A stretch of DNA of 27,923 nt from a virus, in the IMG/VR virus record IMGVR_UViG_3300036823_000052, positions 1 through 27,923 of that record; one strand, 5' to 3'. Under the pieces are notes generated by a model. That model had not been told where the DNA came from. It worked only from the letters and a program-made list of their open reading frames with translations, and did no database searches. Within the stretch, counting starts at the first letter, position 1, and each line of letters opens with the position of its first letter. The position numbers and the translations under genes were made by a program. Below are positions 1 through 16,118 of this stretch, one piece after another.

Positions 1-1182
1 AGTCACCGTAAGACTCGCCCCGAAGATCTGCTGCGATGTCGGCCACTGGCTGCTGTCATAGCCCGGAGTGAAGTTGACGGTCCCAGTTCCCACTAGCTCG
101 CCGCCGGTCTGCGGGCTCAGCGTGCAGTTCTTTGGGATATTGACCGTCCCACTCACCACCTCGCCCGTTGTGATCTGGATGATTGTCGGGTTGGTGTTGC
201 AGGTCGCAACGTCGGTTGCCAGATCGCCCGTGTTGATGAAGGCGGCCGCTGCGAGCGTGCAGGCCGCGTTGCTACCGGTGGTCGTGCAGGTGCCGCTGAG
301 GCCATTCGCCGCCGGCACGCTGACGGTGGTGAGCGTGCCAGCTCCCCCACATGTCAATACTCCAGCTGTCACTGTGCACGTCGTTCCATCCGGCTTTACT
401 GCCCCAAACGTCGTATTTGTCGCGAAAGGGAGATCTGTCCCCACGATCGTGCGAAATCCCGGGACGCCAGCAGATCCGGACGGCGCCGCAAAGAACGAGT
501 TAGCTGCCTGGTTGGCCAGCCCCACATTGATCGTTCCATTTGACGTCAGGGGCGAGCTCGTCACAGAAAACACCGACGCAGGCATCGCAAGCCCCACACT
601 GGAGAGGCCCGTGCTCGACGCCGGCGTGGAGTAGTAGCCCGCGCCGTTCAGATACTGAGTTGGGGACCCGGTGTTCCCAGGCAGCAAATGCGTGTTGTCG
701 GTACTCAACGTGAGCTGCGGGTTCGTCGTCGGGCTCGTGATCGTCCAGGCAAAGCCGTTCGCATTCACCCCAGAGACGCTCTGCACGCTTCCCGAGCCGC
801 CCCCGCCAGCGCCCCCGATGCTGAAGATATAGCTCCCCAGGAACCGCCCTGTCGGCGAGACGACGCTATAGCTGTAGTTCCCTGCCGCGATCCAGAAGCC
901 GAATTTGCCCTGGGAGTCGGTCGTGATCGGGTTGTCGATCGCCTGCGTCAGCGCCACATCGCTGTAGACAGTGACCGTGTTCGTGCAGCTCGTCGACGTC
1001 GACGGCGCCGCCGGGTACGCACACACCGTCACCACTGAGTAGGGATAGGTAAACAGCGGCGCCTGGGCGTTCGGTGGCACGGCTGTCGACGTCGTCAGCA
1101 CAGACGAATCGAACCAGACGCCCTGCGCCCCCGCGGCCACCGTCCCCGCCAGCATCACCAATAACATCAGAATCTTCCGCAT
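1..1182 (-). CDS. Tail fibre / tailspike protein with Sec signal peptide (3' end beyond window)
   Basis: The frame is open for all 394 codons from ATG at 1182 to the left edge, so the C-terminus is missing. Upstream of the ATG is a GGAGTGGGGAAA ribosome-binding region. The N-terminus is a textbook signal peptide: Arg-Lys, a hydrophobic core (ILMLLVMLAGTV), then a likely cleavage site after AGA (residue 19 or so). Next comes a small beta-sandwich-like domain, an AGGGGSGS linker near residue 120, a fibre-like repeat region ending in an FRTIVGTDLP motif of the kind seen in many phage fibres, and, at the visible end, a Cys/Thr/Gly-rich stretch with IPKNCTL and repeated short beta strands that resembles the start of a right-handed beta-helix. 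I infer a receptor-binding fibre or depolymerase spike. It is the last gene of the leftward structural block, where P22-like phages carry their tailspike. A secretion signal on a virion fibre is odd. No catalytic domain is visible in the part present. Confidence 0.72.
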   Translation of the reverse strand, partial: MRKILMLLVMLAGTVAAGAQGVWFDSSVLTTSTAVPPNAQAPLFTYPYSVVTVCAYPAAPSTSTSCTNTVTVYSDVALTQAIDNPITTDSQGKFGFWIAAGNYSYSVVSPTGRFLGSYIFSIGGAGGGGSGSVQSVSGVNANGFAWTITSPTTNPQLTLSTDNTHLLPGNTGSPTQYLNGAGYYSTPASSTGLSSVGLAMPASVFSVTSSPLTSNGTINVGLANQAANSFFAAPSGSAGVPGFRTIVGTDLPFATNTTFGAVKPDGTTCTVTAGVLTCGGAGTLTTVSVPAANGLSGTCTTTGSNAACTLAAAAFINTGDLATDVATCNTNPTIIQITTGEVVSGTVNIPKNCTLSPQTGGELVGTGTVNFTPGYDSSQWPTSQQIFGASLTVT

Positions 1183-1197
1183 CGTTTCCCCACTCCC

Positions 1198-1225
1198 AAA
1201 TCAAAAGGCCACCCGAAGGCGGCCT
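1198..1225 (-). terminator. Intrinsic terminator upstream of the tail fibre gene
   Basis: Read on the minus strand, AGGCCGCC, a TTCG tetraloop and GGTGGCCT form an 8-bp stem with one G-U pair, followed by TTTTGATTT. The hairpin lies between the end of the structural operon (2475) and the fibre start (1182), only about 16 nt before the fibre ATG. Transcripts from the operon must pass it to express the fibre. The U tract is on the minus-strand side, so it is unlikely to serve the plus-strand acyltransferase, which points away from it. Confidence 0.7.
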
Positions 1226-1330: not shown

Positions 1331-2467
1331 ATGTCTAAACTTCGTTGGCACCTGGGACAGCTGGACGCACTGCGCGGCATCGCCGCCCTCGGCGTAGTCG
1401 CAGCTCATTCCGTTTATCTATTCCCTGCCAGCCATCTCACCATTCCGCTATTCGCGGGCCAGCGTGGCGTTCAACTCTTCTTTATCGTCAGCTCGTTCAC
1501 ACTGTTCCTGAGCTTCGAGAATCGACGCGACGAGGAACATCCCACTCGTAATTTCTTTCTCAGGCGATTCTTCCGCCTCGCGCCGCTGTACTACATATTG
1601 CTCATCTTCACGCGCTTCACATACCCCGAGTTGAGCGGGTCTTGGAGCACGACCGCCATTTGCGCTCTCTTTCTGCAGGGGCTTACACCGACGCTAGTAG
1701 TTCACGGCGTTCAAGGTGGCTGGACTCTGGCTTGTGAGGCATTCTCCTACGCTTTACTGCCAATCGCTTTTAGGTACATCCGCTCCCTCACCGCGGCGGT
1801 GAAGGTCTTCATCGCGACGGCAGTTATCTGCGGGATCGGCAGCTTCTTACTCGCTCACATGTACCCGAGCTACCATGAGTTCTTCGAATTCCTCTGGTTT
1901 CCATGCGAATTGCCCGTCTTCTGCCTGGGAGTGGTGTGTTACTGGATCAAACGAGAGCTTATTCACGATGAGAATAAGCCAGTATCGCTGCTAATCCTCG
2001 CCGCTGTTGTGCTCGGCGGATGGGCCATGCTTCCCTTCGACGACGGAGGCCTTTATGCAACCTCTCTACTCGCTGGTGCTCTCCTTATCGCTGTCCTGCT
2101 CCACCCGTGGCGAATGCTCGTAAACCCCTGCACGATATTCCTCGGCCGCATTTCCTACAGCGTTTATCTGCTGCACGGCTTTGCCCTGCATTTAGTCGCT
2201 CAGCCGCTGTTGGAAATGCTTATAAAACATCATGTTCTGTCCGGACGCCCCATTCAAGGCGATCTCCTAAGGGTTGTGTTCACACTGATCGTCACTATCC
2301 CCGCGGCCACACTGACCTGGTGGCTCATAGAGGAATCGGGAATCCGCGTCGGCCGACGTCTCATCTCACGGTTTGAGCCAGCCCCCGTCCGCAAGGCGGC
2401 GACTACCATCCCGCTGCCGGCTGCGGCGATCGGCGCGCAATCCAACTCACCGGATGCGCAGTTTTAG
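1331..2467 (+). CDS. Acyltransferase family 3 integral-membrane protein (OafA/Oac-like)
   Basis: A 378-residue protein with about ten hydrophobic segments and the family hallmarks: QLDALRGIAALGVVAAHS at residues 10-27, with the conserved Arg15 and His26, then GVQLFFIVSSF near 46-56 and a LRRFFRLAPLYY motif near 77-88. Members of this family (OafA, Sf6 Oac, NolL) transfer acetyl or other acyl groups to sugars at the cytoplasmic membrane. The likely role is modification of host surface polysaccharide, as in phage-encoded O-antigen conversion. It is the only long plus-strand gene among leftward structural genes, sits between the ejection-protein block and the tail fibre, and its stop lies 7 bp from the convergent stop at 2475. 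Base composition looks less G+C-rich than its neighbours by eye, suggesting separate acquisition. The ribosome-binding site is weak. Family assignment is secure; substrate is unknown. Confidence 0.9.
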   Translation: MSKLRWHLGQLDALRGIAALGVVAAHSVYLFPASHLTIPLFAGQRGVQLFFIVSSFTLFLSFENRRDEEHPTRNFFLRRFFRLAPLYYILLIFTRFTYPELSGSWSTTAICALFLQGLTPTLVVHGVQGGWTLACEAFSYALLPIAFRYIRSLTAAVKVFIATAVICGIGSFLLAHMYPSYHEFFEFLWFPCELPVFCLGVVCYWIKRELIHDENKPVSLLILAAVVLGGWAMLPFDDGGLYATSLLAGALLIAVLLHPWRMLVNPCTIFLGRISYSVYLLHGFALHLVAQPLLEMLIKHHVLSGRPIQGDLLRVVFTLIVTIPAATLTWWLIEESGIRVGRRLISRFEPAPVRKAATTIPLPAAAIGAQSNSPDAQF

Positions 2468-2474: not shown

Positions 2475-4952
2475 CTACTGCTGGCGCGCCGGATAGAGCG
2501 TCGACGCCGGCGGTGGAATGAATCGAGGCGAGCTAGCCAGAGACTTGGGCTTCATCAGCCAATCCACGAACTTCGGGGAGTTCATCAGCCTGGAAACTCC
2601 ATATTCTGCCCCGTTATAAAGAATGGGTGCTGCGATCGTCGCCGCACCAGCTATCGGATGCCCGAGGACCGCTTCCGTGATCCCGCTGGGGATCGCAGCA
2701 GCGCTGGTGCCGATGTCACCGATCTTGCGCGCCAACGTCGCCGTGCCGCTTCGGTTCAAATTGGTATCGAGCGTGTTGGCGGCCGTCGCGATATCGTTCA
2801 ACCTCTGCGTCCCGCCAGGCGATTCTCCAAACAACGCTCCGTGATAGTCCGCCGGCTGCATTGCCAGCTTCCTGCCAAACGTTGGGAAGTTAGGTTGCCC
2901 TTCGCGATCAACGCCCAGAAGGTTGGAGATCTCGCCACGCTGGATCGCTCCGACTCCCTCCGGACCAATCCTCGGCGCCAGGTCACGGAAGGAAGCACCC
3001 GTACGGGCTCCGATTCCCTTCGTCAACGTCACCGGATCGTCATCGAATGCAGCCTTCTCATATGGCTGCATATCGCGGTACTTTTCGCCGACATCCCGCA
3101 ATGTGTCCAGGTTCGGGCCGAACAGCGCCTGAGCGCTATCCTCAGGAATCCGAGCCAGTGGCGCGCCCAGGTTGCGGAGATCATAGTAGCCTTCGGGCGT
3201 CTTACCCAGCAGCTTCTCCGCATTGGCGCGAGCCGCGATGCCAACGCCTTCGTCGCCGGTGATGTCCTTCAACTGGCTCACCGCTGCTGGTGATGTACCG
3301 CCGATCCCTAGTTTCAACGTGGCCGGGTTCGTTGTGCGCACAGCGTTGTAGTAGCCACTGGTGGGATTGTCGAAGGTGTTCTTCATCGACTCCCATTGCG
3401 CATTCGCCGCACGCCACGCTTCCTGCCCGTCCTGAGGCAAGCTGTCCATGATCGCCTGGTCGTGAGCAGCGATTAGACGCTGAATGTCGCCGCCATAGGA
3501 GCTCTTCACGATCTCCGGATCGCGCGTGAGATCCAGCAGCGCAGAACGGCTCCGGATCAGGTCGCTGACGGTTGGCGCTCCGAGATAGGCGCGCTGACTC
3601 TCATTGCCCAGTTGGGCCGCATCGCCCACCACGCTCATCATCCGCTTCGATTCGAGCGATGGGAATTGTTGCCCGAAGCGATCATTCTTCGCGCCGATAT
3701 CCTCAGCCGTCTTATTAATCAGCGAAGCATTGTTTGCGGGAAGGGCGCCATAGTCACCTGCGACATCCTTGTACCCTTGCTGCGCCTTGTCATAGATCTC
3801 GTCCATCTTCGCCTTTGCGAGACCCTGCAGGCGCGCACCACCAGCCTCATCCTGCAGCGGCGACATCGATCCCAGCGTGTCATGTACCTGGTCCTGCAGC
3901 CCGACAAACGGAGCTTTCAGTGCACTCTGAATCCCCGCTCCGGCGACCTCTGGGGATACTGGCGATGCAGCATCCTGGAGATCCTTCGCCGTGTCGCTGA
4001 GGGAAGCAATGTTTGCTCCCTTCGCACTCTCATAGGCTCCGCTTCCGGCCGCAGTTGCCTGGTTGTGATTCTTGATCGCGGTCAATAGGGGGCTGTTCGT
4101 CGCCTCGGCCGCATCAGGCTGCACACCGGTACGCTGCAGCGCAGCAAAACGGGTATTCGGTGTCATGCCTCCTGTCCCGGCGATCGGGGCGTCGAGATCT
4201 CCAGACAGTTTTCCGCGGACGAACTCCAGCGCGCGCGGCGCCACCATTGGAGCCGCGAGTGTGCCGGCCTGAAGGAGGCCTTGTGCAACCGCATCTCCAG
4301 GGCGTCCGGCGTCCATATCCGCATTGATTCCAGCAGCTCCGGCGGGATCAATCGGATTCACCATCGAAAGCGCGCTCAGGCCTGTGCGTGCCCCATTCAA
4401 TAGAGTAGGCACCACTCCGCTCTGCTTGGGGTCCATAGTGTCGTGGGCATACTGAGCCGTCTGCTGTGCGGCGAGCTTTTCACCGCCGATGACTCCCTTA
4501 GCCATACGGTAGATCGGGAGTGCAGCAGGTCCCCCCAGTGAGATCGCGTGCTCTGTCGTAGTCCCCGGAGGGGCGGCCAGACCCACCAGACCCTTTCCTG
4601 CATTCCAGATCGTGGAAGGGAGAGCCTTCAACGTGTCCCCTGCAGTGCTCAGCGCAACCTGCCCCAGTGACGGGCCAGGGAGCGGTGCACCCTGGTAATC
4701 CTTGGAGAACCGGTCGTGATCACCGGCGTCGAGTTTGTAGCCAGCCTTCTCCGCATGCAGCACATTGCTGAACGGCACACCCACTGTGCCGCTCGGCCCC
4801 TGCATCTTATAGACGCCCTCGTTATTGGGGTTCGCCGTCAGGTCTGGCGCAGTGGCAGCAGGTGCAGCCGTGGGGTTGCCATTGTCATCGAGATACACCT
4901 TCGCAGGTGCAGCAATCGGGTTCCCCTGCGCGTCTAGATATTGCTTCGGCAT
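2475..4952 (-). CDS. Large internal virion / DNA-ejection protein (candidate)
   Basis: An 825-residue, Ala/Gly/Pro-rich protein, the last and largest of three adjacent genes. The N-terminus holds two copies of a short motif, YLDAQGNPIAAPA and YLDDNGNPTAAPA (residues 5-32), followed by a PFSNVLHAEKAGYKL segment and then long predicted helices with some hydrophobic stretches. There is no recognisable lysozyme or transglycosylase motif. The ATG directly follows the TAA of the upstream gene (TAAATG), so translation is probably coupled. Position and size order (170, 492, 825 residues) match the three ejection proteins of P22-like phages (gp7, gp20, gp16), which are packaged in the head and form the DNA conduit across the cell envelope. 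The function is inferred from position and composition only. Confidence 0.6.
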   Translation of the reverse strand: MPKQYLDAQGNPIAAPAKVYLDDNGNPTAAPAATAPDLTANPNNEGVYKMQGPSGTVGVPFSNVLHAEKAGYKLDAGDHDRFSKDYQGAPLPGPSLGQVALSTAGDTLKALPSTIWNAGKGLVGLAAPPGTTTEHAISLGGPAALPIYRMAKGVIGGEKLAAQQTAQYAHDTMDPKQSGVVPTLLNGARTGLSALSMVNPIDPAGAAGINADMDAGRPGDAVAQGLLQAGTLAAPMVAPRALEFVRGKLSGDLDAPIAGTGGMTPNTRFAALQRTGVQPDAAEATNSPLLTAIKNHNQATAAGSGAYESAKGANIASLSDTAKDLQDAASPVSPEVAGAGIQSALKAPFVGLQDQVHDTLGSMSPLQDEAGGARLQGLAKAKMDEIYDKAQQGYKDVAGDYGALPANNASLINKTAEDIGAKNDRFGQQFPSLESKRMMSVVGDAAQLGNESQRAYLGAPTVSDLIRSRSALLDLTRDPEIVKSSYGGDIQRLIAAHDQAIMDSLPQDGQEAWRAANAQWESMKNTFDNPTSGYYNAVRTTNPATLKLGIGGTSPAAVSQLKDITGDEGVGIAARANAEKLLGKTPEGYYDLRNLGAPLARIPEDSAQALFGPNLDTLRDVGEKYRDMQPYEKAAFDDDPVTLTKGIGARTGASFRDLAPRIGPEGVGAIQRGEISNLLGVDREGQPNFPTFGRKLAMQPADYHGALFGESPGGTQRLNDIATAANTLDTNLNRSGTATLARKIGDIGTSAAAIPSGITEAVLGHPIAGAATIAAPILYNGAEYGVSRLMNSPKFVDWLMKPKSLASSPRFIPPPASTLYPARQQ

Positions 4953-6431
4953 TTAGTGGGCCACCCAGCCCGTCCCATCCCAAGTGCCCTGCTTCCCGTT
5001 CGGGAATGTCTTCGTATCGCCTACCTTCGGCGCGTTGCCGTTACCGTTGCCGCCGAAGTTTGCCTGTCCCTTCTTTGCCGCATCGAACTGCGATCGCAGG
5101 GCAGCGCTCTTCGTGTCCAGCAAGTGTGAATAGGACGCGACCACGTCATGGAGCTCTGACGGCGAGTTCGCATCGTTGATCGACTGGCGAATCTGGTTGA
5201 TCTCATCGACCGTCGCGCCCGCGCCTGTGAACGCCTTCGCGATCTCTCCTGATACGGCCGTTTTCACTCCCTGGAAGACAACCGGCGCCGACTGACCTGT
5301 CGCAACTCCATAGGAGTTAGCCAAGCGATTGAGCCCCTGGATGTCGCCATTCTGGAGCGCATCGCCTGCGATGGCGAGCTGCTGAAGATGCCCCTTTGCC
5401 GTGTTGAACGCGGTGAGCGTATGGGAGTCGCTGCCGGACGTGAAGTCCTTCAGGGCAGCTCCTTCCGCCTTATAGGTGTTATCGCCAAGCCCCTGCGCTC
5501 CGCTCTTTTCAGCCTGCCCGGCCTGCATGTACCCAGCCTGTCCACCAGGCAGCACTACCTGCAAGGGTCGCGCGTTTGCTCCGGCAACAGCCCTTGCGAC
5601 GCCGGGATCTGTCTTCGTCGTCTTCACCCAGCTCTGATAGGCCTTCACAAATGCCGCGTCATCAGGAGTCCACTCCTCCTGAGGCTTGCTGGTGATGGCA
5701 ATAAATTCGTCATCGCGCTGCTTCGGCTTGGCCTGCAGAGCATCCAGCTTCGCCTGCGCAATAGCCTCGCGGCTGGTATTGCTGGCTGCATTATTGTCCG
5801 ATCGCGTGTCGTTCGTATTCAGATTGCTGAAGTACTTCTGGCGATCGCGTGGAGACATCATTAGCCCTTGGAGCTCCGGGTGCCCGATCGCTGCAGCATC
5901 GTCGGCCCCGAGTGGCGCCGGCGTATCTGAGCCAGCCATAGCGATTGCTTTGGAAGCTTCCGCCAATGCCTGATCGTTCTGTATCTGCTGATCGTTCTGG
6001 GCCTGCTGCTGGCTATTCGCGATCAATCCTTCCTGCTGACGGACCAGCAGGTTGTGGTGCGCCGTCGTTCCCGGCAGCGCTACATCCAACACATGCGCCA
6101 GCGGCGACATAGCCCCAAAGACACTCAACGCGATGTCGCCTGTTTTAGCGATCCCGCGCAGGAGTGGGTTCTTGATCTGGTCGACGCCTGCGCCGTCCTG
6201 CGTCATCTCATTCAGCTTCGCCTGATGTGTCAGGAGTGGGCTGGAGAACGCCTGAGGCAGAGTCGGCATCGGCACCTGCGACGGGTCGGAGAGCGGCACA
6301 GCCTGGGTGCCCATCGGGGTGGCATCCAGTGTGGGTGCAGCAAGCGCATTCACAGCCGCCTGGTTCGCCGCTCCCTGGGCCAGCATCGCCGGGATCTTCG
6401 CTGTGAGGTTGGGTATTGGTGCTGTCGTCAT
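4953..6431 (-). CDS. Internal virion / DNA-ejection protein (candidate)
   Basis: A 492-residue Ala/Gln/Asn-rich protein of largely helical character. Residues around 90-115 form a hydrophobic stretch (GDIALSVFGAMSPLAHVLDVALPG), followed by a Gln/Asn-rich helix near residue 140. A GDTKTFPNGKQGTWDGTGWV tail at the C-terminus looks like a small beta unit of the sort found at the ends of many phage structural proteins. The ATG follows the TAA of the previous gene directly, with a GGGAGG ribosome-binding site inside that gene. I place it as the middle ejection protein by analogy with P22 gp20 (similar length, same order). No family is recognised with certainty. Confidence 0.55.
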   Translation of the reverse strand: MTTAPIPNLTAKIPAMLAQGAANQAAVNALAAPTLDATPMGTQAVPLSDPSQVPMPTLPQAFSSPLLTHQAKLNEMTQDGAGVDQIKNPLLRGIAKTGDIALSVFGAMSPLAHVLDVALPGTTAHHNLLVRQQEGLIANSQQQAQNDQQIQNDQALAEASKAIAMAGSDTPAPLGADDAAAIGHPELQGLMMSPRDRQKYFSNLNTNDTRSDNNAASNTSREAIAQAKLDALQAKPKQRDDEFIAITSKPQEEWTPDDAAFVKAYQSWVKTTKTDPGVARAVAGANARPLQVVLPGGQAGYMQAGQAEKSGAQGLGDNTYKAEGAALKDFTSGSDSHTLTAFNTAKGHLQQLAIAGDALQNGDIQGLNRLANSYGVATGQSAPVVFQGVKTAVSGEIAKAFTGAGATVDEINQIRQSINDANSPSELHDVVASYSHLLDTKSAALRSQFDAAKKGQANFGGNGNGNAPKVGDTKTFPNGKQGTWDGTGWVAH

Positions 6432-6944
6432 TTAGCCTCCCAGATTCCCCGTTGCGGCCTGCCCTGCACTCTGCATCCCCTGCAGCAGAGCCTGCTGCCA
6501 GAAAGGCTTCGCCGCATTGTTGGCAGCTCCGAGCGACTGCATCGCCGTCTGATCGCCGGTCTGGTAGATCCCGTTCAATCCAGAGAGCCCCTGCGATTGC
6601 TGCGCACGTTTGAGCGCCGCATCCTGCGTATCCACGCCCAGGGTATTGTCACTCTGCTGCCTCATCGAGCCACGCGCCGAGGCGTCGATCGCCGGCGCAT
6701 ATCCGCCGACATTGCCTGTCCGGGCCGCCATCAGGTTTGCCTGCCCCACAGCTCCGGCCTGGCTGCCGCCGAGACTCTGGGCCCCTTGCGTCACCATGTT
6801 GGCCTTCTCCTGCGGGGTATAACCCTGCGGGTTCGTCGCCATCTGCGTATAGATTGGGTTCGCTGTCCCATAGGCCTGATTTGCCTGCGCGGTCCCAGTC
6901 CCATAGCTTGCGAGCGCGTCTCCCTTGACCCCTGAACTGCCCAT
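6432..6944 (-). CDS. Small Ala/Gln/Gly-rich internal virion protein (candidate)
   Basis: A 170-residue protein very rich in Ala, Gln and Gly, with little hydrophobic core and repeated AQ/QAG patterns, typical of phage internal virion proteins. The start at 6944 is preceded by AAAGGCGGT. It is the first of three abutting genes ending at 2475, consistent with the smallest DNA-ejection protein of P22-like phages. It could equally be a head-filling or tail-interior protein. No catalytic motif is seen. Confidence 0.5.
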   Translation of the reverse strand: MGSSGVKGDALASYGTGTAQANQAYGTANPIYTQMATNPQGYTPQEKANMVTQGAQSLGGSQAGAVGQANLMAARTGNVGGYAPAIDASARGSMRQQSDNTLGVDTQDAALKRAQQSQGLSGLNGIYQTGDQTAMQSLGAANNAAKPFWQQALLQGMQSAGQAATGNLGG

Positions 6945-6956
6945 TACCGACCGCCT

Positions 6957-7328
6957 TTACCTGAGTACCTTGATGTAAGAAATCTCACTGCTCCGGAGCC
7001 ATCCCCACCCCAGTAGCCGCCTGCAGAAACGTTCCGTCCCCGCGAACCACGTCACCACGCGCCGCACGCTGTGCGCCTTCACCTGGATCTCCATGGCTCG
7101 GTGCAACGTCTTCAGTGCTGCCTCGCGAGCCCCCGGGGTCTTCCACGCCGGATCAACCAGGCAATGGACCTCTGCCAGGCGCCACGCCCCCGCACACAGC
7201 ACCGGGCGGTCGTCCTCATCGGCCATTACCAGCGCGTCCATGAAGTCCTCGCCGAACTCCCAGCGATGATGGCCTTCGATCTCCCGGAGCCGCGGTATAT
7301 CGTCCGGCCGTAGTGGACGGATCGTCAT
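6957..7328 (-). CDS. GNAT-fold acetyltransferase-like phage protein
   Basis: A 123-residue protein beginning MTIRPLRPDDIPRLREIE, the beta1-alpha1 start of GNAT N-acetyltransferases, with a middle strand (RPVLCAGAWRLAEVHCLVDP, about 41-60), a helix rich in Ala/Lys/Arg (68-87), a VVTWFAGTERFCRRLLGWG strand-helix unit (91-109) and a final strand. The acetyl-CoA-binding Q/RxxGxG/A loop is not clear, so catalysis is uncertain. Its ATG overlaps the stop of the upstream structural gene (ATGA), implying translational coupling. Similar small GNAT-like proteins occur among virion genes of podoviruses; T7 gp13 is a related case. I infer a virion assembly or ejection-associated protein rather than a metabolic enzyme. 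Confidence 0.65.
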   Translation of the reverse strand: MTIRPLRPDDIPRLREIEGHHRWEFGEDFMDALVMADEDDRPVLCAGAWRLAEVHCLVDPAWKTPGAREAALKTLHRAMEIQVKAHSVRRVVTWFAGTERFCRRLLGWGWLRSSEISYIKVLR

Positions 7329-7840
7329 GCTCGCACCGGCGGCTTCGGCGTCGTATAGGCCACGCTCCCGAACCCTGCCAGGCCTGTCCCACTGCCCTGC
7401 CCTGCCTGCATGGGCGGCTCTGTAGCTCCGGTGGTGTCCACCGCTGCGTGATACAGTGGCGAGCTCGGCGTGCTTGAGCTCGGATACTGCGAATAGGTCC
7501 GCACGGCGAACGTCCCGCTGCCTTTCGAGCCGCGCCAGTTCTTCGCGGGGCCCATCGGCTGCGTGTGCACCGTCTTCCAGCCGTCGTTCGAGTAATCGAA
7601 GAAGTGCTGCAGCCCCTGGTACTGCGGTGAGTTGTCCGTAACCTGAACGTCCAGGATGCCAGCTCCCCCCACTACCGAGTTCGCGGCGTGCGGAGAGGGT
7701 GCCGGCAGCGTTCCAACCGGCGCGGCGTTGCCCTGCTGCCCCATATTGTTCGCCACGTTCTGCAGGTACTCGAGTGCTCGGCCGAGATCTGGATCACGTA
7801 GCTTGATCGCCGCCAGCTGGGGCACATTCGCGTTAGACAT
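7325..7840 (-). CDS. Small phage structural protein with Fn3-like domain
   Basis: A 171-residue protein. Residues 1-35 are helical (a head or tail attachment-type segment), residues 36-55 are a flexible Pro/Ala/Gly linker, and residues 58-130 look like a fibronectin type III or similar beta-sandwich (GILDVQVTDNSPQYQGLQHF, KNWRGSKGSGTFAVRTYSQYPSS). The ATG lies 8 nt inside the end of the giant tail gene and its stop overlaps the next start. Position suggests a tail or head-tail decoration component. I recognise the domain style from phage structural proteins but cannot name an orthologue. Confidence 0.55.
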   Translation of the reverse strand: MSNANVPQLAAIKLRDPDLGRALEYLQNVANNMGQQGNAAPVGTLPAPSPHAANSVVGGAGILDVQVTDNSPQYQGLQHFFDYSNDGWKTVHTQPMGPAKNWRGSKGSGTFAVRTYSQYPSSSTPSSPLYHAAVDTTGATEPPMQAGQGSGTGLAGFGSVAYTTPKPPVRA

Positions 7841-10800
7841 TGGGCTTATTCCATCCCGTCACCGGGCTATAGGGGTGCGTCACCACGGCCACCGTCAGCA
7901 GCGAGATCCGGAAGCCTGCCTGTCCCCCATTCGCCGCCGGCTGGCAGCCGATCTGATAGAAGACGCGGTCCGCGGCTGCCTCCAGCGCAAACAGCAGATC
8001 GTTCGCCATCGGAGTACTCATCGGCACAGCGCGCGTGAGTCGCCCTGGAGTCGACAGGTTCCCTAGGAAGGGCTGCAACCGCACCAGCCCGTTGCCGGTC
8101 ACCTTCATCGTCGCGAGGCAGTGCAGCAACCGATGCGTCCCCAGCTGCTTGCCCTGCGCCTCGTCCGGGCTGACGAACCCATAGGTCGTATAGAACGAGG
8201 TATCCCAGTAAGAGCCATAATCGGCATCGATCCCGGAGAGGCTGTCCTCATCCAGCGTGTAAGTCGTCGAGTTCGCCGGAGCCGACGTGGCAAAGCCCGC
8301 AGCCCCACAGAACCCCATCACCTCTTCGCCAGAAGCCAGCGTCAGGAGACCGCAGTAGTTCACGAAGACTGTCCAGGGCGTCCACTTGCGCGTCAGGTCG
8401 GTGGTGATCATCTTGCCCGTAAAGCTGATGCGCAGCGTGCCGGCGCTTGCTAGTGCGCTGGAGGTGTTCAGGTCGCGGTAGTCCAGCACATAGGTCGTAT
8501 TCGTGATGGCCTCATCCCCAGTCGCGGCCAGGATGTAGATCCGGCGACGATAGGGATCGTTGCGCACCACCGTCAGCTGCTTCGCGTCAGGATTGATCGA
8601 GTCCCAGAAGGTCTGCTCCTCCTGCGACATCTTGTCGACCGAGCCGCCGTCGTAGATCCGCAGCCCGGTATCCGAGGCCCATACCTGCCAGTCCTCGAAC
8701 TTGTCATCACCCCACACGCTGATCGCGCCGCACCTCGACGCCACATGCGACACCGACCAGGTCCCCGGTTCGCCGCTGGAAGTGTCCTGCGAGTCATAGA
8801 GGTTGCCCTCGGGTCCCGCAGTCAGCAGGTGAAGCACATCCTTGCGCTCGAACAGCGCGCGGACCTCGTTCGGATCACTCGCGGGGCCCAGCACCCCGGT
8901 AACGCCGTCGAAGGCCTCCGGATTCTGGATATAGCTCGCTCGCACGCTGCGCAGGTAGGGGTTCGCTGTGTAGTACAGCTCCATCTCATCGAGGGTTTGC
9001 ACATCGCCATCGCCAAGCCCCGTAGCGAAGATCCTCAGCACTGTGTCTGCCGGGATCACCGCCGGCGTCTCGGCCGAAAGAACTACTTCGCCAAAACCTC
9101 CAGCCATCGTCGCCGCGACCGTCCCCGTCGCCAAGATCGTGTTCGTCGACGGCGAGTAGAGCTGCACGGTAGTACTTCCCAGCCCCTGATTCCAGAGCCG
9201 GAAGGTGTACTGAGTCAGCGGTTGTAGGATCGCCACATTGTAGGCATCCTGGAATGCTGGCTGGGTGATCGTGCCGTCTGTCCCAGTCCCGCCACCGGTG
9301 ATCTGCCAGGCGCAGCCATAGTCGCCGCCCGTCACCACGGCGCCGGCGCCCGCCGTTGCCATCCAGCCCAGCGGAAGTACCGATCCGCTCAGCGTGCCGC
9401 CTTCGAAGCCCATATTCAGGAACTGCTGGATCTTGTTCCGCTCTCCCCAGGCAAACAATCGGCCCGCATAGCTGAAGAAGCCCAGCACGGGGCCCAGCAC
9501 GACCTGGTTGAACAGGTCATTGCCTGGGATGTCGATCGCCGTCGCAGCCAGGAGCGACTGATCTGTGAAGTTGAAGGTCGCAGAGGTCGACACGTTGTCG
9601 CTGACAACGGTCGAAGTGCCATAGGTCACGCCCAGCAGCTGCGCAGCCACCGGCAGATAGAAGAATGTGCCGCCATTCGCGCCCGTGAAGGCCACCCCGC
9701 GCGCCACAACGTTAGCTGGCCCGATCGCAAGGTTGGACACTGTGATGCCGTTGCAGTTCTGCGGCACAGTGAACGTCACCGGTGGGCTCGGGATGGTCAG
9801 GTAGCCGGAACGCGTGATGAAGAACTCCACGCCCTGGCGCACACCCGGTGCCACAAAGTCATTCGCTCCGATGAAGGTCAGCGTGCCGCCCGTCGCATCG
9901 CCGAAGATGGGCGTATTCGTGGGCTGCAGCCCCAGGTACTGCGGACCCGGATCGATAGTGAACTCGGTCCCCGCCGTCACGCCGGTCCCGCTCTCGGCCA
10001 CAAACGCATAGTCTGTGCCGGTTTCGAAGCCGTTGATGGTGAAGGTGCCCGGGGTGCCACCGGAAGCCGTCGCGATGGTGAAAGTGGGATTGGCGGCCGT
10101 GTTGTTCAGGATGTTATCGCCGTTCAATAGCCCGGCCAGGGTCACCAGCTGGCCAGCCGTCGGCGGCGTGCCGCTGCTCACCGTGTAATGCAGCGTGGCC
10201 ACGCCCGCGGTGATGGAGCTGCCCGTGATCGCCAGGACACCGGAGTCCAGCTGCTGTGTGATCTGCCAGCTCGAATCCCATGCCGCGACGCTCGATCCGG
10301 CGATCTCCGCCGTGTCACCCACACTCAGGTCAGGGACCTGCTCCGTCGTCGTCACCGTCGCCAGCGTGCGCTGGTACGTTGTCACGTTGTCTGGATGACC
10401 GGAGCCGGGCGCAAAAACATAGTCCGAGGTCGCAACGGTGAAGGTGAAGTAATAGAACTGGTGGGGCTGGTCCGGAGGCCCTCCCAGCCCGATATTCGTC
10501 ACCAGCACCACAGCAGGGCCATAGGTGGGCAGCCCATAGGGGTTGGTGAAGTTGAAGTACAGGTAAACCGGGTTGCCGGAGTTGAACGCCGCGACCAGGT
10601 CCGCGTCCTCGCTCGCTCCGTCCGACTTATCTGCATAATAGGCCGTTGCTGTGGTGCCCGGCGCCGTCGATCCTGGCGCGGCCGACTGCAGGAAGTAGGA
10701 GCTTCCCCACACCTGCTGCGCCGGCTGGGTGATCGTCTCGATCGGGAAGCTGTCTGTGGTGATCGAACTCGCCGAGAACACCGGCGGAGCTCCTGGGCCA

Positions 10801-11219
10801 TCCTGCGAGACGCGATCGAGGTTCGTTCCATCGAACTGCAGAGGCACATCGGCCCCATGCAGCCCGTCACTGGTTGCGATGTAGATCTTGCCAAACGCGG
10901 CCGCCGTGAAGAACCGATTCCCCGCGGCCGTCGAGCCGATCACCTGGCCGTTGGCATACATCTTGCCGTCGGCAGTAAAGCGCAGCTGCACCACCGTGCC
11001 ATCGTTCTTGGCGAAGCTGGTGGCGTAGAGCACCTGCGACGTCGTGCCGAGAGTGTCGTTCACCTGCAGGGGCGGCCGTGTATACACCTCACCTGGCTGG
11101 AACGCGACATCGCTGCAGCCCGGCGACAGGCCTTGCGCCAGGTCGCTGGGCGCCAGCTCCGTGTTCTCTCCCGCAAACACGCTCAGCGGGAACTCGACGC
11201 ACCCTTCCGTGTTGTTCAA
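7833..11219 (-). CDS. Very large tail protein, nozzle/stabilisation-protein-like
   Basis: An 1128-residue beta-rich protein. The N-terminal part (residues 1-60) reads as a virion-attachment segment with GCSDVAFQPGEVYTRPPL, and is followed by repeated blades of beta structure. The middle (about 290-500) holds Gly/Thr-rich Ig-like stretches, and residues 560-640 have FAWGERNKIQQFLNMGFEGG. The C-terminal 350 residues are Trp/Tyr/Asp-rich and propeller-like (for example AVLGPASDPNEVRALFERKD, WGDDKFEDWQVWASDTGLRIYDGG). In P22-like phages a beta-propeller tail protein (gp10, about 470 residues) caps the connector at this place in the order; this one is more than twice as long. The start is TTG at 11219 with AAGG upstream; no earlier ATG exists and GTG at residue 14 is an alternative. 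Structural role likely, exact role inferred. Confidence 0.55.
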   Translation of the reverse strand: MNNTEGCVEFPLSVFAGENTELAPSDLAQGLSPGCSDVAFQPGEVYTRPPLQVNDTLGTTSQVLYATSFAKNDGTVVQLRFTADGKMYANGQVIGSTAAGNRFFTAAAFGKIYIATSDGLHGADVPLQFDGTNLDRVSQDGPGAPPVFSASSITTDSFPIETITQPAQQVWGSSYFLQSAAPGSTAPGTTATAYYADKSDGASEDADLVAAFNSGNPVYLYFNFTNPYGLPTYGPAVVLVTNIGLGGPPDQPHQFYYFTFTVATSDYVFAPGSGHPDNVTTYQRTLATVTTTEQVPDLSVGDTAEIAGSSVAAWDSSWQITQQLDSGVLAITGSSITAGVATLHYTVSSGTPPTAGQLVTLAGLLNGDNILNNTAANPTFTIATASGGTPGTFTINGFETGTDYAFVAESGTGVTAGTEFTIDPGPQYLGLQPTNTPIFGDATGGTLTFIGANDFVAPGVRQGVEFFITRSGYLTIPSPPVTFTVPQNCNGITVSNLAIGPANVVARGVAFTGANGGTFFYLPVAAQLLGVTYGTSTVVSDNVSTSATFNFTDQSLLAATAIDIPGNDLFNQVVLGPVLGFFSYAGRLFAWGERNKIQQFLNMGFEGGTLSGSVLPLGWMATAGAGAVVTGGDYGCAWQITGGGTGTDGTITQPAFQDAYNVAILQPLTQYTFRLWNQGLGSTTVQLYSPSTNTILATGTVAATMAGGFGEVVLSAETPAVIPADTVLRIFATGLGDGDVQTLDEMELYYTANPYLRSVRASYIQNPEAFDGVTGVLGPASDPNEVRALFERKDVLHLLTAGPEGNLYDSQDTSSGEPGTWSVSHVASRCGAISVWGDDKFEDWQVWASDTGLRIYDGGSVDKMSQEEQTFWDSINPDAKQLTVVRNDPYRRRIYILAATGDEAITNTTYVLDYRDLNTSSALASAGTLRISFTGKMITTDLTRKWTPWTVFVNYCGLLTLASGEEVMGFCGAAGFATSAPANSTTYTLDEDSLSGIDADYGSYWDTSFYTTYGFVSPDEAQGKQLGTHRLLHCLATMKVTGNGLVRLQPFLGNLSTPGRLTRAVPMSTPMANDLLFALEAAADRVFYQIGCQPAANGGQAGFRISLLTVAVVTHPYSPVTGWNKPNV

Positions 11220-11231
11220 CGGTCAGTGGCC

Positions 11232-11579
11232 TTAGTACTTCTGCATGTCGATCGCAGCCAGGATGCTCGCATCCGGGACCGCAGTCGTGTTCGCCAGCTC
11301 CGTGCCCGGCGCGGAGAAGATCTTCGTCGTCACCGTCGGGATGCCGCCGCTGAACGTGATCGTCGAGACATAGAGGTAGCCGGTCGGCGAAAACCACTGG
11401 AAGGCGATCGGGTTCTTCGACACAAAGGCCGAGGTACCAGGGCCGGCCGTGACGGAGCTGAACGGCGTGGTAAAGCCGCCCGTGGCATACGTGCCGGTGA
11501 GCGCATACTTCACAAATGCGCGCGTCTCGCGGCTGCTGAAGGTGTCGTGAATACGGGTTCCTGTTGCAACAATGGCCAT
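11232..11579 (-). CDS. Phage structural protein of unknown function
   Basis: A 115-residue protein, mostly beta, starting with MAIVATGTRIHDTFSSRETRAF and containing FSSVTAGPGTSAFVSKNP and YLYVSTITFSGGIPTVTTKI. It has a strong AGGAGGG ribosome-binding site and sits between the connector-like gene and the giant tail protein. The size and position fit a head-completion, stopper or decoration protein, but I do not recognise the family. The gap before it (11580-11665) carries copy B of the shared control element. Confidence 0.5.
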   Translation of the reverse strand: MAIVATGTRIHDTFSSRETRAFVKYALTGTYATGGFTTPFSSVTAGPGTSAFVSKNPIAFQWFSPTGYLYVSTITFSGGIPTVTTKIFSAPGTELANTTAVPDASILAAIDMQKY

Positions 11580-11624
11580 GATGGCCCTCCTGTAGAAACT
11601 TGGTGAAATGTGGGATTTAGAGAC

Positions 11625-11649
11625 TTATGTGCGCACGCGCGTATTGCTC
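11625..11649 (-). promoter_or_regulatory. Candidate control element (copy B)
   Basis: On the minus strand GAGCAATACGCGC is followed after 6 nt by ACATAA, matching copy A near 1244-1271. It lies in the 86-bp gap between two genes, about 58 nt before the start at 11579. Function is unknown: internal phage promoter, RNA-processing site or chance match. Confidence 0.3.
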
Positions 11650-11665
11650 TCGAAATTGCGACGCG

Positions 11666-12451
11666 TCAGTTGCCCGGCACGGGCCAGAAGCCCCAGCCGC
11701 CGCGGCGTCCGCCGGAGTAAGGCCGTCTGCGCAGAGTCTGCCGCTGTTTGCGCCTGCTGGTGCGCGTGGCCGCGCCGTTCATAAAGGCGCTTTCGGCCCA
11801 CGCTTCCATCGCTGGAGCCTGAGCTGAACCGCGCGCACTCGCATACTCAAACGCCACCCGCGCGCCCAGGCAGTCTCTGCAACGCATCATGGGCACAAAC
11901 ATCGTCGGAACCAGCACGTTCAGATCCGCACGATATGCCGCGTAGCGGATGCGGAAGTCCTGCGCGAAGGTCGGGGCATAGAAGTACACCCCGTCATCGC
12001 GCCAGTCGAATACGTTGGGATCTCGCCCGATCGGCAGCCCGTCCTCGGCCTGGCGCATCAGCGCGAAGGCATTCGTCGTCTGCGTCTGACGGCGCCAGAT
12101 CGATAGCGGCTGAATCAGGTCCTGCGGCAGCTGGGGCAGGTCAAATTGGTTCACCCCATCGGAGCAGCCCAGCCATGTCAGCCACGCCTGGTCTGCCGTG
12201 TCGCGGCTTGCCGTCGCCGGCAGCCCCTGCAGCACCACTTCCTTGATCAGCGTCTCCACGCCCACGTCGGCGCAGCGGTCCTGATACCACGTCCAGGCAT
12301 CGCTCAGGTACGTCTGCGCATAGGGAGCGTCGTTGGTCAGCAGATCCCCATCCACGTCGTTGATCATGTCGTTCACGCGCGATCGCGCGGTGTTCATGAT
12401 GTCGGAGATGCGGGGATAGGGATTGCCGCCAGCAGGAACGATTGTTCCCAT
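11666..12451 (-). CDS. Head-tail connector / adaptor-like protein (P22 gp4 position)
   Basis: A 261-residue protein whose first half is helical (ISDIMNTARSRVNDMINDVDG, LSDAWTWYQDRCADVGVETL) and second half beta-rich, ending in a basic tail (RRKQRQTLRRRPYSGGRR). The helical N-terminal half with conserved Trp/Tyr is the pattern of portal-adaptor proteins that dock under the portal. Its start is immediately after the TAA of the upstream gene, with AAGG as ribosome-binding site. It is placed after the coat gene and before the giant tail protein, where P22 carries tail-accessory factor gp4. Assignment is by fold pattern and position; sequence identity to gp4 is not evident. Confidence 0.5.
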   Translation of the reverse strand: MGTIVPAGGNPYPRISDIMNTARSRVNDMINDVDGDLLTNDAPYAQTYLSDAWTWYQDRCADVGVETLIKEVVLQGLPATASRDTADQAWLTWLGCSDGVNQFDLPQLPQDLIQPLSIWRRQTQTTNAFALMRQAEDGLPIGRDPNVFDWRDDGVYFYAPTFAQDFRIRYAAYRADLNVLVPTMFVPMMRCRDCLGARVAFEYASARGSAQAPAMEAWAESAFMNGAATRTSRRKQRQTLRRRPYSGGRRGGWGFWPVPGN

Positions 12452-13258
12452 TTACTTGGCCTTGGTCCCCGGCTTCCCTGTGGCCTTGGCAGCCTTCGGG
12501 GCAGGAGCCTCTTTGCGCGGAGCCTTCGCCTCATGCGCATAAAGGTGCGGGAAGAGCTTGCGTGCACGCTCTTCATCCAGGATGGCTCCGCAGCCGCCGT
12601 GATGACAGCGCACAGCATCCACGGCCACAGGCTGACCGCAGCCCTCGCACGGCACCATCTTGGCGTTCTTGCGCGCCCAGGGACGGTCCAGGCCCAGCGC
12701 ACGGCAGGCATTGATATGGTCCCGCGTGATGCCGCTGTAGCTCTTGCCGTTGTCGCCGACCTCCATGCCGCCATTCACCTCGAACGCCCCATCCGCATAG
12801 CGGACGAGCTTGTCGTAGTGAGCGTTCAGCTTGTCGTGGGCAGCTTCGATCTCCTCCTCGGTCGGTTCAGCGCCAGCGGCGATGAACACACCATACTGGG
12901 TCAGATTGTCAGAGCTGTCGCGGAACGCGCTGACACCGATAATGTCGCGGGCGAGCTTCGCACCCTCGGTCGTCAGGTCCCATTTGTACGTCACCGTGCG
13001 GCCGTCGACGGCATCCACGATCGACTCTGGCAGAATGCTCGGCAATCCGGGCTTGCCCTGGTAGGTCAGAGGACCGCTGCAGTCATCGTCCTCGGAGCAG
13101 CCCGGGATGAAGAATGTCCCTAGTGACCCCATCGGCCGGGTGTAGCTCCATGGGCCCACGTTGAAGATGTGGATTCGGTTCTGGTCCATCATCGACCGGA
13201 TCGGCCCTGGCAGTGCGGCGATGCTTCGTGAAATCTCATTGCGGTGGTCAGGCAGCAT
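12452..13258 (-). CDS. Phage protein with C-terminal zinc-ribbon-like motif, unknown role
   Basis: A 268-residue protein. The N-terminal part (25-130) is globular with YTRPMGSLGTFFIPGC and a Cys54/Cys60 pair, then a helical EPTEEEIEAAHDKLNAHYDKL segment (131-152), and a four-cysteine motif Cys204, Cys207, Cys218, Cys223 (CEGCG then CHHGGC) that should bind zinc. The last 30 residues are Lys/Ala/Pro-rich and basic. The ATG overlaps the previous stop by 11 nt with GAGAGG upstream. It sits in the run of genes after the coat protein, so a virion or assembly role is likely, but I do not recognise it. Confidence 0.5.
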   Translation of the reverse strand: MLPDHRNEISRSIAALPGPIRSMMDQNRIHIFNVGPWSYTRPMGSLGTFFIPGCSEDDDCSGPLTYQGKPGLPSILPESIVDAVDGRTVTYKWDLTTEGAKLARDIIGVSAFRDSSDNLTQYGVFIAAGAEPTEEEIEAAHDKLNAHYDKLVRYADGAFEVNGGMEVGDNGKSYSGITRDHINACRALGLDRPWARKNAKMVPCEGCGQPVAVDAVRCHHGGCGAILDEERARKLFPHLYAHEAKAPRKEAPAPKAAKATGKPGTKAK

Positions 13259-13754
13259 GGATCGTATTTCCTCTCGTCAGTGCGGTCTTGATGATCTCGG
13301 TCTTCAGCGCGTCGGCATCGAACGCCTTCCTCTCGGCCGACTTCTTCAGTGCGACCGCGCGCTCGGCATCCGTGAAGTTCAGCTTGCCGAACTGGATCAT
13401 GGCGCAGATCGCATGCGCCTTCCCTGGATCGACAGAGTCCTCGAATTTGTAGCTGAGCTCGTAATCGCCATCCGTGGGGTAAGCCATCTCGGCCGAGCCG
13501 AAGATCTGGGCCGCCAGCATCGCCGCATACTGCTCCGGCGTCATCTGTGTCAGATCTTCGGCACTCAGCCATTTCTCCAGCACCCACTTGTTGCCGACCT
13601 CATACCTCGGCAGCTCGTGGATGCGCCCCTCGAACTTCACCTTGTCCAGCCGCGTATCGCCCTGCACGATCCGGAACAATGGGAGTCCCGTGGGGGTTTT
13701 ACCGTGCTCGATGAGATCGAGCGGATGGAAGGTGATCTCGCGATCAGGCTGCAT
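13248..13754 (-). CDS. Conserved-looking phage protein of unknown function
   Basis: A 168-residue protein starting MQPDREITFHPLDLIEHG. The longer open frame upstream is an Arg/Ser-rich shadow of the preceding gene; ATG at 13754 has AAGGTGAG just before it and overlaps the previous stop by 11 nt, the same overlap as the next junction. Middle residues (PRYEVGNKWVLEKWLSAEDL, then MTPEQYAAMLAAQIFGSAEM) are mixed alpha/beta. It belongs to the coat-to-connector gene run and may be a head-assembly or head-completion factor. No motif that I recognise. Confidence 0.5.
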   Translation of the reverse strand: MQPDREITFHPLDLIEHGKTPTGLPLFRIVQGDTRLDKVKFEGRIHELPRYEVGNKWVLEKWLSAEDLTQMTPEQYAAMLAAQIFGSAEMAYPTDGDYELSYKFEDSVDPGKAHAICAMIQFGKLNFTDAERAVALKKSAERKAFDADALKTEIIKTALTRGNTIHAA

Positions 13755-14430
13755 GCTCACCTTCGGGCTTGGCAGCCGTGTCGGCCTGCTCTGGCTCCGG
13801 CGCGGGCTTGTCAACCTCACCAGCCTCCGGATGCAGGCGCTTGTACTCACCGAACGCGGCATTGATGGTGTCGGAGTGCTCGAGTGCAGCAGTGAGCTTC
13901 GTCTTCCACTCCTCGACCTCACCCTCCGCCTCAGTCACCTTCGCCCATGCAGCAACAGCGGATTCGCCCGCCGTTTTAGCGCTGGCCTCGAACTCGGTGG
14001 ATTGCTTCTGAGCTTCGGTAATCTGAGCCTCGAGGCCATCGACCTTCGTGTCATAGCCCTTCAGCACGTCGCGGGCGGAGGCCAGCTCCTTCTGCAGCTC
14101 GGCGAGAGCGGGATCAGACACGGGCGCGGAGGCTGGCTCCGGCGCGGGCGCGGGCTGCTCCCCAAAGCGCTCCTCGATCAGGTCGGCGATCACCTCGCGA
14201 GCCAGGTTGGAGTTCGATCCAACCGCGCCCAGAAAGCTCGATAAATCGTCATGCCCATACCGCTGCAGGAACGGCTTCGCGCGTTCACTCATGGCGACGA
14301 ACGCGCCACGCGCCACGACAGCCCGCGGAACGCTCACACCCTCCGCCACTTCGATCGCCGCGCGGTCCTGGGCGTCCTTCTCCAGGCGAGCCTGATGCTC
14401 GGCTGTTTCCACGTTCAATTCGTCTGCCAT
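13744..14430 (-). CDS. Acidic coiled-coil protein downstream of the coat gene
   Basis: A 228-residue acidic protein. Residues 1-90 include a helical unit ending in LAREVIADLIEERFG, 92-108 is a Pro/Ala linker (EQPAPAPEPASAPVSDPA), and 109-190 is a long predicted coiled coil with repeated Glu/Lys/Ala heptads (LAELQKELASARDVLKGYD). The C-terminus is again Pro/Glu-rich. GAGGAAAA precedes the ATG. Possible roles are a second scaffold-like or capsid-associated protein. A hairpin lies between this gene and the coat gene and may reduce its expression relative to coat. Confidence 0.5.
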   Translation of the reverse strand: MADELNVETAEHQARLEKDAQDRAAIEVAEGVSVPRAVVARGAFVAMSERAKPFLQRYGHDDLSSFLGAVGSNSNLAREVIADLIEERFGEQPAPAPEPASAPVSDPALAELQKELASARDVLKGYDTKVDGLEAQITEAQKQSTEFEASAKTAGESAVAAWAKVTEAEGEVEEWKTKLTAALEHSDTINAAFGEYKRLHPEAGEVDKPAPEPEQADTAAKPEGEHAA

Positions 14431-14452
14431 CGTGTTTTCCTCGTAAATTGCA

Positions 14453-14480
14453 ACGGGGCTGCCGGCGCCGGCAACCCCGT
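14453..14480 (-). terminator. GC-rich hairpin after the coat gene, probable attenuating terminator
   Basis: CGGGG/CCCCG outer arms flank a 2x2 mismatch and the palindrome GCCGGCGCCGGC, giving a strong hairpin in the 79-bp gap after the coat stop. On the minus strand it is followed only by GTTGCAATTT, so the U tract is poor. It is best read as a partial terminator or 3'-end stabiliser that leaves more coat mRNA than downstream mRNA. Confidence 0.5.
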
Positions 14481-14509
14481 CAGGTTGTGGTTGTGCTGGA
14501 GACCGCGGC

Positions 14510-15766
14510 TTAGTAGCCGGCCGGGATCGCCAGGGAGCTGATGAACGCGTTGGCGCGCGGGTTATCGCACACCACGTTGCCCATCCAGTACAGGTAGCTC
14601 AGCATGGAGGCAGCGACGCCGCCGCTGTCACCCATCGGCCAGAAGGTGCGCTTGCCGTCGACCTCGTAGAAGTCGAGAGCCTGCACCTCGGTCCGATACC
14701 ACGTCTTGAAGTCCAGCAGATCGATGCGACCCGGGATGGCCTTCAGGTTCGTGATGATCTCGATGCCGCCGATGGTCGAGATCTGCTCTGTTGCGAGCAT
14801 GTCTCGGGCCGTGGCGTTACCGGACTGGATGTTCTGCGTGACGTTGATGCCGGTGTTCTCCCACGCGGTCTGCTGATCTAGGCCCATGTGGAACTTCACG
14901 CTGTCGCCGGGCTTGGTGTTCACACCGCGCGCCAGCTTGAGCTGGGCGAGGAGCAAACGCGCCACCTGGGGTGTCAGCGTTGTGTTGCCGGCGTTGACCG
15001 TCGGCGTCGAGAACGCGCCTGGATACGCGGCCACAGAGACACCCGTGTAGGTGCCGGTGGTACGCGCAGCCTGGTACGCCAGGATGCCGTTGAGGCCGGA
15101 GTTGGCGGTGCCGGCCGAGGCGTTCTCGAGCAGCAGGCCAGTGGCGACCGGGTTGGTGCCCGGGTTGGCGGTGAGGTACAGCGCCTTGGCGGTGTTATCG
15201 ACGCCGAGGATGGTGATGGTCTCGGTCACGGCTGTACCGAGGCCGCCGGCGTAATAGTCGACGTCCTGGCCGGCATAGAACCGGGCCGCGTTGTCGACAT
15301 AGATGATGAAGTTGGTGTCGTCGTAGCTGGTGACGATGCCCAGCGTGTTGGCGCCGTCACCGTAGCTCAGCAGCGAATCGATGTTGAAGGCCGCGATGCG
15401 CGTGTGGTCCTTCAGGATCTCAGCCATGTAATCGACCACGGCCTTCTCCCGGCTGTCCGAGGAGATCTCGGCAAGCTTGGTCCACTCCATCACCCAGTCA
15501 AAGCTGACTGGTGCGATGTTGCCGAACGCATACTGCGGAGCTCCGCCGCGACCCATGTCGCCGCCGTCCAGGTTCACCACACGCGACTTGCCGCCGGTGT
15601 AGGGCTTGTAGACGATGCGCTCGGGACGGGTGGAGACCGTGTCCTTCGGACGGGCCTTGATGTACTTCCAGAAAATGGAGTCGAGCGCAAACATCTCCTC
15701 GAGGTCAGGCGAATGCACCTTCTCGAGCTGCGCCGCAAGAATGGCGGAATTATTACCTACAGGCAT
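14510..15766 (-). CDS. Major capsid (coat) protein, HK97-type fold inferred
   Basis: A 418-residue protein directly after the portal/scaffold block, with features of an HK97-fold coat protein: a helical N-terminal arm (residues 1-40, AILAAQLEKVHSPDLEEMFA), an extended loop with Gly-rich YTGGKSRVVNLDGGDMGRGG (56-75), a spine-helix-like SSDSREKAVVDYMAEILKDH (102-121), a beta/Gly/Thr-rich insertion (about 135-265) and a C-terminal domain ending in a hydrophobic strand-turn (YLYWMGNVVCDNPRANAFIS). AGAAGG precedes the ATG at good spacing. A 190-nt leader separates it from a terminator and a tRNA, so its mRNA may be produced or processed separately from scaffold mRNA. Length is close to P22 coat (430 residues) and gene order agrees. 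I do not see a protease-cleaved N-terminal delta domain. Confidence 0.8.
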   Translation of the reverse strand: MPVGNNSAILAAQLEKVHSPDLEEMFALDSIFWKYIKARPKDTVSTRPERIVYKPYTGGKSRVVNLDGGDMGRGGAPQYAFGNIAPVSFDWVMEWTKLAEISSDSREKAVVDYMAEILKDHTRIAAFNIDSLLSYGDGANTLGIVTSYDDTNFIIYVDNAARFYAGQDVDYYAGGLGTAVTETITILGVDNTAKALYLTANPGTNPVATGLLLENASAGTANSGLNGILAYQAARTTGTYTGVSVAAYPGAFSTPTVNAGNTTLTPQVARLLLAQLKLARGVNTKPGDSVKFHMGLDQQTAWENTGINVTQNIQSGNATARDMLATEQISTIGGIEIITNLKAIPGRIDLLDFKTWYRTEVQALDFYEVDGKRTFWPMGDSGGVAASMLSYLYWMGNVVCDNPRANAFISSLAIPAGY

Positions 15767-16110: not shown

Positions 16111-16118
16111 AAACTTGA

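Follow-up and report, generated by a model that had tools for sequence, protein, structure and literature searches.

We found a gene for a putative tailspike or fibre that begins with a predicted Sec signal peptide at one edge of a virus record of 27,923 bases (here called the window, the whole stretch of DNA that was analysed), in which most genes lie on the minus strand (Table 1). The 3' end of this gene is located beyond the window edge; thus, 394 residues are visible and the C-terminal part of the protein is unseen. An in-frame stop six codons 5' of the ATG at position 1182 makes a longer start impossible, and a Shine-Dalgarno-like GGGAG is placed 10 nt before this ATG. The first-pass annotation had considered that the true start might lie downstream of the hydrophobic segment. 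However, no conserved internal start exists: a start codon with a Shine-Dalgarno sequence near the cleavage site is found in just 4 of 40 family members, and an ATG in 7 of 40. A wrong start codon can therefore be ruled out on the basis of the upstream stop, the GGGAG and the non-conserved internal starts.

A terminator-like hairpin with a T-run lies just upstream of the spike gene, at the same place as in relatives. Such hairpins precede the spike genes of 9 of 15 contigs, compared with 14 of 459 other genes. They end 18-35 nt ahead of the spike start codon, and are also found upstream of the first spike genes in G003, G004, G006, G009, G010, G013, G001 and G549. Since the hairpin is too near the spike start for an intervening promoter, it may act as an attenuator or a partial terminator. 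A divergent gene for a membrane O-acyltransferase stands between the spike gene and the structural operon, and its product could modify the receptor of the spike. A similar acyltransferase gene (509-1600) adjoins the spike cassette of G010. In the structural and packaging block, no convincing signal peptide was found apart from that of a small, likely exported protein (20754-21227, minus strand) encoded near the terminase-like gene, which has a signal peptide or lipobox and four cysteines in the rest of its sequence. No relatives of this small protein were found. The block also contains a tRNA gene (16039-16110, minus strand).

Table 1. Features of the window around the predicted exported spike gene
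Feature	Position	Strand	Basis
Predicted exported tailspike/fibre gene	1..1182	-	Family membership, E 3e-39
Predicted Sec signal peptide, residues 1-19 (MRKILMLLVMLAGTVAAGA)	1126..1182	-	Rule-based scan; leaders of this type in homologues
Gln20, predicted first residue after cleavage	1123..1125	-	Invariant in family alignment
Predicted virion-docking (head-binding-like) domain, residues 20-123	814..1125	-	AlphaFold, fold match, profile match
Cys54, first cysteine of the conserved hairpin pair	1021..1023	-	Family alignment
Cys66, second cysteine of the conserved hairpin pair	985..987	-	Family alignment
Gly-rich linker, residues 124-132	787..813	-	Sequence
Tail-fibre repeat region, residues 193-252	427..606	-	tblastn
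Fibre repeat with Cys269/Cys278 (DGTTCTVTAGVLTCGG)	343..390	-	Putative disulfide, inferred from the family parity rule
Fibre repeat with Cys299/Cys308 (GLSGTCTTTGSNAACTL)	253..303	-	Putative disulfide, inferred from the family parity rule
Shine-Dalgarno-like GGGAG	1193..1197	-	10 nt before the spike start codon
Terminator-like hairpin with T-run	1206..1225	-	Same place in relatives
Membrane O-acyltransferase (Acyl_transf_3; phrog_3333)	1331..2467	+	Pfam E 8e-31, PHROG E 6e-48
Structural/packaging block (terminase-, portal-, scaffold- and capsid-like proteins, 7833-11219 structural protein, others)	2475..23965	-	Named mainly from position and weak matches

The spike leader is composed of an n-region (MRK), a 15-residue hydrophobic core and A-G-A preceding Gln20, where the predicted Sec/signal peptidase I site (MRKILMLLVMLAGTVAAGA followed by Q) is located; a docking-type domain is fused directly to it. 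Our scan and the family alignment bear out the first-pass annotation, which had described a charged tip, a hydrophobic core and an AGA site. The scan, which is our own rule-based one and not SignalP, was positive for 3 of the 33 ORFs of the window: the spike, a multi-pass membrane acyltransferase that is probably a false call, and a second likely exported protein. AlphaFold places a helix at spike residues 2-18, followed by a beta domain. Synonymous and non-synonymous substitutions counted in the leader are very few.

The domain that follows the leader was modelled alone from 23 relatives with a pLDDT of 90. In comparison with the PDB, it scores Z 10.3, 9.0, 8.3 and 8.1 with the tailspike head-binding domains of Pan3, Pam1, Sf6 and P22, respectively. 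The E-values given by Foldseek are modest, between 1e-3 and 2e-2, and Z values of 7-8 are also reached by immunoglobulin-like pilin and CnaB domains, which means that the fold alone is not decisive. In an independent comparison by sequence profile, E was 2e-4 for the Pan3 tail spike (from a cyanopodophage) and 0.0018 for Pam1 (entry 7eeq, 'tailspike head-binding domain'); signal-less relatives match tail-protein families. Profile, predicted fold and the tail-protein families of signal-less relatives thus agree in suggesting a head-binding domain. Further along the protein, residues 193-252 match the tail fibres of cyanophages and an Achromobacter phage in tblastn searches (E down to 2e-7), confirming the typical fibre repeats that had been noticed earlier. 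The beta-helix-like region proposed in the same annotation fared less well, as Pfam, PHROG and PDB searches gave no hit for the visible part of the body, and the AlphaFold model of all 394 residues has a low pLDDT of 45 beyond the N-terminal domain.

Direct searches of viral contigs found no relatives with the whole fibre, its first 141 residues or the portal-like protein as a query, and neither Pfam nor PHROG gave a match for the fibre. We scanned the viral contigs with the motif D-x2-G-x-F-x-F-W-x3-G-x-Y, which derives from the middle of the domain and has no N-terminal content, and obtained 35 loci. About two-thirds of them encode the same domain, mostly preceded by a leader. A wider pattern and genome searches enlarged the family to 117 non-redundant members. 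A signal peptide is present in 42 of them, whereas the other 75 have a Met directly at the start of the domain. Six leaders with a long n-region (L132, L133, L141, L183, L201 and L211) were missed by the rule and accepted on inspection, L201 and L211 less surely, while those of L127 and L137 were discarded as false scan calls. The leader-bearing members include a group of short proteins (about 330 residues) with four domain cysteines (L116, L118, L121, L123, L146, L157, L160, L182 and others). Some relatives contain GDSL hydrolase-type domains and one signal-less relative has a pectate-lyase domain; no hydrophobic anchor was found at the C-terminal ends of complete relatives.

The sharing of the leader by homologues answers the homologue comparison proposed in the first-pass annotation. 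Gln20 is invariant in 15 of 15 aligned members, and Gln follows Ala/Gly in all 27 complete leader-bearing members, as read by eye. Because most of the relatives found by the motif, which is blind to the N-terminus, have the same kind of leader, the leader is not a chance feature. On the sequence evidence as a whole, we are highly confident that the spike is exported by Sec.

The cysteines of the family appear to follow the leader. Among the 15 aligned members, Cys54 is invariant and Cys66 nearly so. This hairpin pair is present in 40 of 42 signal-bearing and 0 of 75 signal-less members (Fisher 2.6e-29, computed on 117 related sequences that are not 117 independent draws). In the two leader-bearing exceptions, both from one Granulicella MAG, the pair is displaced. 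A domain tree built with the cysteines masked, which has few columns and is poorly resolved, indicates about five leader switches and about six cysteine-pair switches; the independent contrasts are few and go the same way. The spikes L037 and L053, from Granulicella-type prophages, group among leader-bearing spikes in this tree, yet have neither a leader nor the cysteine pair.

The number of cysteines in the predicted mature protein is even in all 27 complete non-redundant leader-bearing proteins (p = 7.5e-9), as against 20 of 38 signal-less relatives, which is the chance level. An exception is G587, a complete relative outside the set of 27, with 11 mature cysteines. In 12 of the 27 leaders the cysteine count is odd, and the full-length count is consequently even in just 15 of 27. 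As the evenness is lost when the leader is counted, the leader does not belong to the paired set, which strongly implies that it is cleaved and that the spike is disulfide-bonded. Periplasmic oxidation of the spike cysteines is likewise implied. The median cysteine content is 2.1% in leader-bearing and 0.63% in signal-less members, compared with 0.28% in the core virion proteins and packaging proteins that these phages encode. At 32% identity, the spike of G003 and gp12 of phage Tunturi_1, both with leaders, have 13 cysteine positions in common, whereas a leader-bearing and a signal-less body at 34% identity have none.

The contigs of relatives share their structural genes with the window; behind these lies a cassette containing between one and four large spike genes, almost all of which encode leaders. 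The leader-bearing genes include some that are unrelated to the window spike family, while the core virion proteins lack leaders. Cassette genes of G005, G006 and G010 that had seemed to be signal-less were ruled out as such, their starts having been mis-chosen; in one cassette gene of G009 (37617-40286), a leader is not obvious. We saw no large signal-less gene of the spike type in phages such as G003, G004 and G013, nor within the set of spike-like genes in Tunturi_1. In two Granulicella-type prophages, on the other hand, the same locus holds a spike that lacks both the signal peptide and the hairpin cysteines.

A similar cassette exists in a cultured phage. We compared Tunturi_1 and Tunturi_2 (PP887698, PP885685), both grown on Tunturiibacter psychrotolerans X5P2, the former of which is a plaque-forming podovirus of Tunturiibacter (PMC11924767). 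Like the phages related to that of the window, Tunturi_1 has a spike cassette (gp12-gp17) with signal peptides: leaders are found on gp12, gp13, gp14 (annotated as a tail spike) and gp17 (annotated as a virion structural protein), and the mature cysteine counts are all even (20, 10, 20 and 32, respectively). Its gp12 is homologous over about 1000 residues to the G003 spike (26039-29485; E 1.7e-92), a relative of the window gene, but lacks the window-type N-terminal domain. Tunturi_3 and Tunturi_4, which also infect Tunturiibacter, have signal-less fibres, suggesting that export is a trait of phage lineages that is not imposed by the host. In the paper describing these phages, a search of the text for signal peptides and mass spectrometry found neither term (PMC11924767).

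Matches in bacterial genomes fall in Granulicella and other genomes of the same family. The host of the window phage, as judged from these relatives, is thus very probably a member of Acidobacteriota (Terriglobia, for example Granulicella or Tunturiibacter). Gln at +1 is also favoured by host leaders in Granulicella-type genomes (L093-L112), with 13 of 40 at the best site, a glutaminyl cyclase (PF05096, E 7e-89 or better) is encoded in four of four Acidobacteriaceae genomes, and the host genomes encode DsbA-family proteins as well. The +1 Gln and the host glutaminyl cyclase match the Bacteroidetes Q-rule, although the host phylum is not Bacteroidota. This suggests a Q-rule-like habit in Acidobacteriota, outside Bacteroidota; the Q-rule has been termed Bacteroidetes-specific in a paper that does not mention Acidobacteria (PMC5837995).

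Taken together, the window gene probably encodes a receptor-binding tailspike (fibre) which belongs to a podovirus-like Acidobacteriota phage and is made as a Sec preprotein and docked at lysis. The leader would direct the spike through SecYEG, as is strongly supported by sequence. Signal peptidase I would then cut after AxA/AxG and leave Gln at +1, a step that is well supported, and the host glutaminyl cyclase may convert this Gln to pyroglutamate. Folding in the periplasm with the cysteines in disulfides is strongly supported by their parity and co-occurrence with the leader, and the spike may then stay in the envelope up to the time of lysis. As capsids are filled in the cytoplasm, the exported spike and the particle must meet at lysis, when the spike would encounter filled, spike-less particles and dock through its N-terminal head-binding domain. 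Three observations lead us to infer this docking, which we consider rather likely: the docking domain itself, the lack of any large spike without a leader in these phages, and the occupation of the same locus by signal-less spikes in two prophages. Tailspike addition concludes the assembly of P22 and can be carried out in the test tube; late docking is thus plausible. A point against it is that docking after lysis, at dilution, could be inefficient.

The main rival to virion docking is a secreted free depolymerase or decoy, which would be exported, released or kept in the envelope and would strip or mask surface glycans, for instance to prevent superinfection or the binding of competing phages, but would never be part of the virion. 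The export signal and the disulfide signature are in keeping with such a protein, as are the GDSL hydrolase-type domains of relatives and the surface-modifying acyltransferase encoded next to the spike, and the export of periplasmic exclusion proteins by phages is known, for example that of T4 Spackle (PMC7650644). However, a virion-docking domain right after the leader would be of no use to a free enzyme, the cassette closes the run of structural genes, and the spike-like genes of G003, G004, G013 and Tunturi_1 include no large signal-less receptor binder that could serve the virion instead. We regard the free enzyme or decoy as unlikely, though well ahead of the remaining alternatives. It was one of three options in the first-pass annotation. 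Another, an assembly route across the membrane, is now the best supported of the three by the docking domain after the leader, the cysteines, the exported cassettes and the signal-less versions at the same locus in two prophages. The third, an uncleaved N-terminal anchor that stays on the virion protein and inserts in the membrane at entry or anchors the spike, agrees with the predicted hydrophobic helix at residues 2-18. It is very unlikely in view of the cleavage motif with its invariant Gln at +1, the pairing rule, which needs the leader removed, and the signal-less versions at the same locus.

The same parity bears on the idea of a dual product, in which an internal start gives a cytoplasmic signal-less virion spike and the exported form has another job. 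Some members do have downstream GTG and TTG codons, but the rarity of suitable starts described above (4/40, or 7/40 for ATG) and the fact that a cytoplasmic form would not favour even cysteine numbers make this highly improbable. That there is no functional export at all, the leader being degenerate or misread from the sequence, might be argued from the use of a simple rule in place of SignalP; it is hardly credible given that many diverged relatives have kept the leader and that their cysteines vary along with it.

The general view is that the virions of tailed phages are completed in the cytoplasm, and to our knowledge the tailspikes of the P22/Sf6/Pam1/Pan3 type are made and attached there without a signal peptide. 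The window spike resembles these podovirus tailspikes in its N-terminal docking-domain fold, its position after the structural genes and the variable bodies, but differs from them in the Sec leader before the domain and in the paired cysteines. The pIII (G3p) protein of the filamentous phage M13 is likewise an exported receptor-binding virion protein, with a Sec leader and periplasmic folding (PMC8310372). Unlike the window spike, pIII has a C-terminal membrane anchor and its virion is assembled at the membrane, whereas the window phage is tailed and no anchor was seen at the C-terminal ends of complete relatives. Among tailed-phage proteins, T4 Spackle (gp61.3) has a cleaved leader and a periplasmic disulfide (PMC7650644), but it is a small inhibitor of the gp5 lysozyme and not a spike. 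Phage proteins of Porphyromonas gingivalis that obey the Bacteroidetes Q-rule (PMC10367356) are, like the window spike, phage-encoded and exported with a Gln exposed after cleavage; they belong to another phylum, have no assigned function and are not shown to be spikes. The capsid 'signal peptides' of P. gingivalis phage reported in the same paper are cut by the prohead protease and represent a distinct phenomenon (PMC10367356). Exported virion proteins are thus already known in filamentous phages and small exported proteins in tailed phages, while in the open-access literature that we searched we found neither a tailed phage reported to export its tailspikes by Sec nor a description of such a route.

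These observations may point to a lineage of tailed phages with two-compartment assembly, for and against which we are evenly divided. In such phages, capsid and tail would be built in the cytoplasm and disulfide-bonded spikes in the periplasm, to be joined at lysis, and docking domains of cytoplasmic spikes would have been converted by the joint gain, and sometimes loss, of leader and disulfide. If this is true, the receptor-binding step would be uncoupled from packaging, spikes could bear disulfides for stability in acid soil, and the spikes of co-infecting phages could be swapped outside the cell. Most genes of Acidobacteriota phages are without function calls and cultured phages exist; a leader together with an even number of cysteines would provide a simple signature for receptor-binding proteins in these phages.
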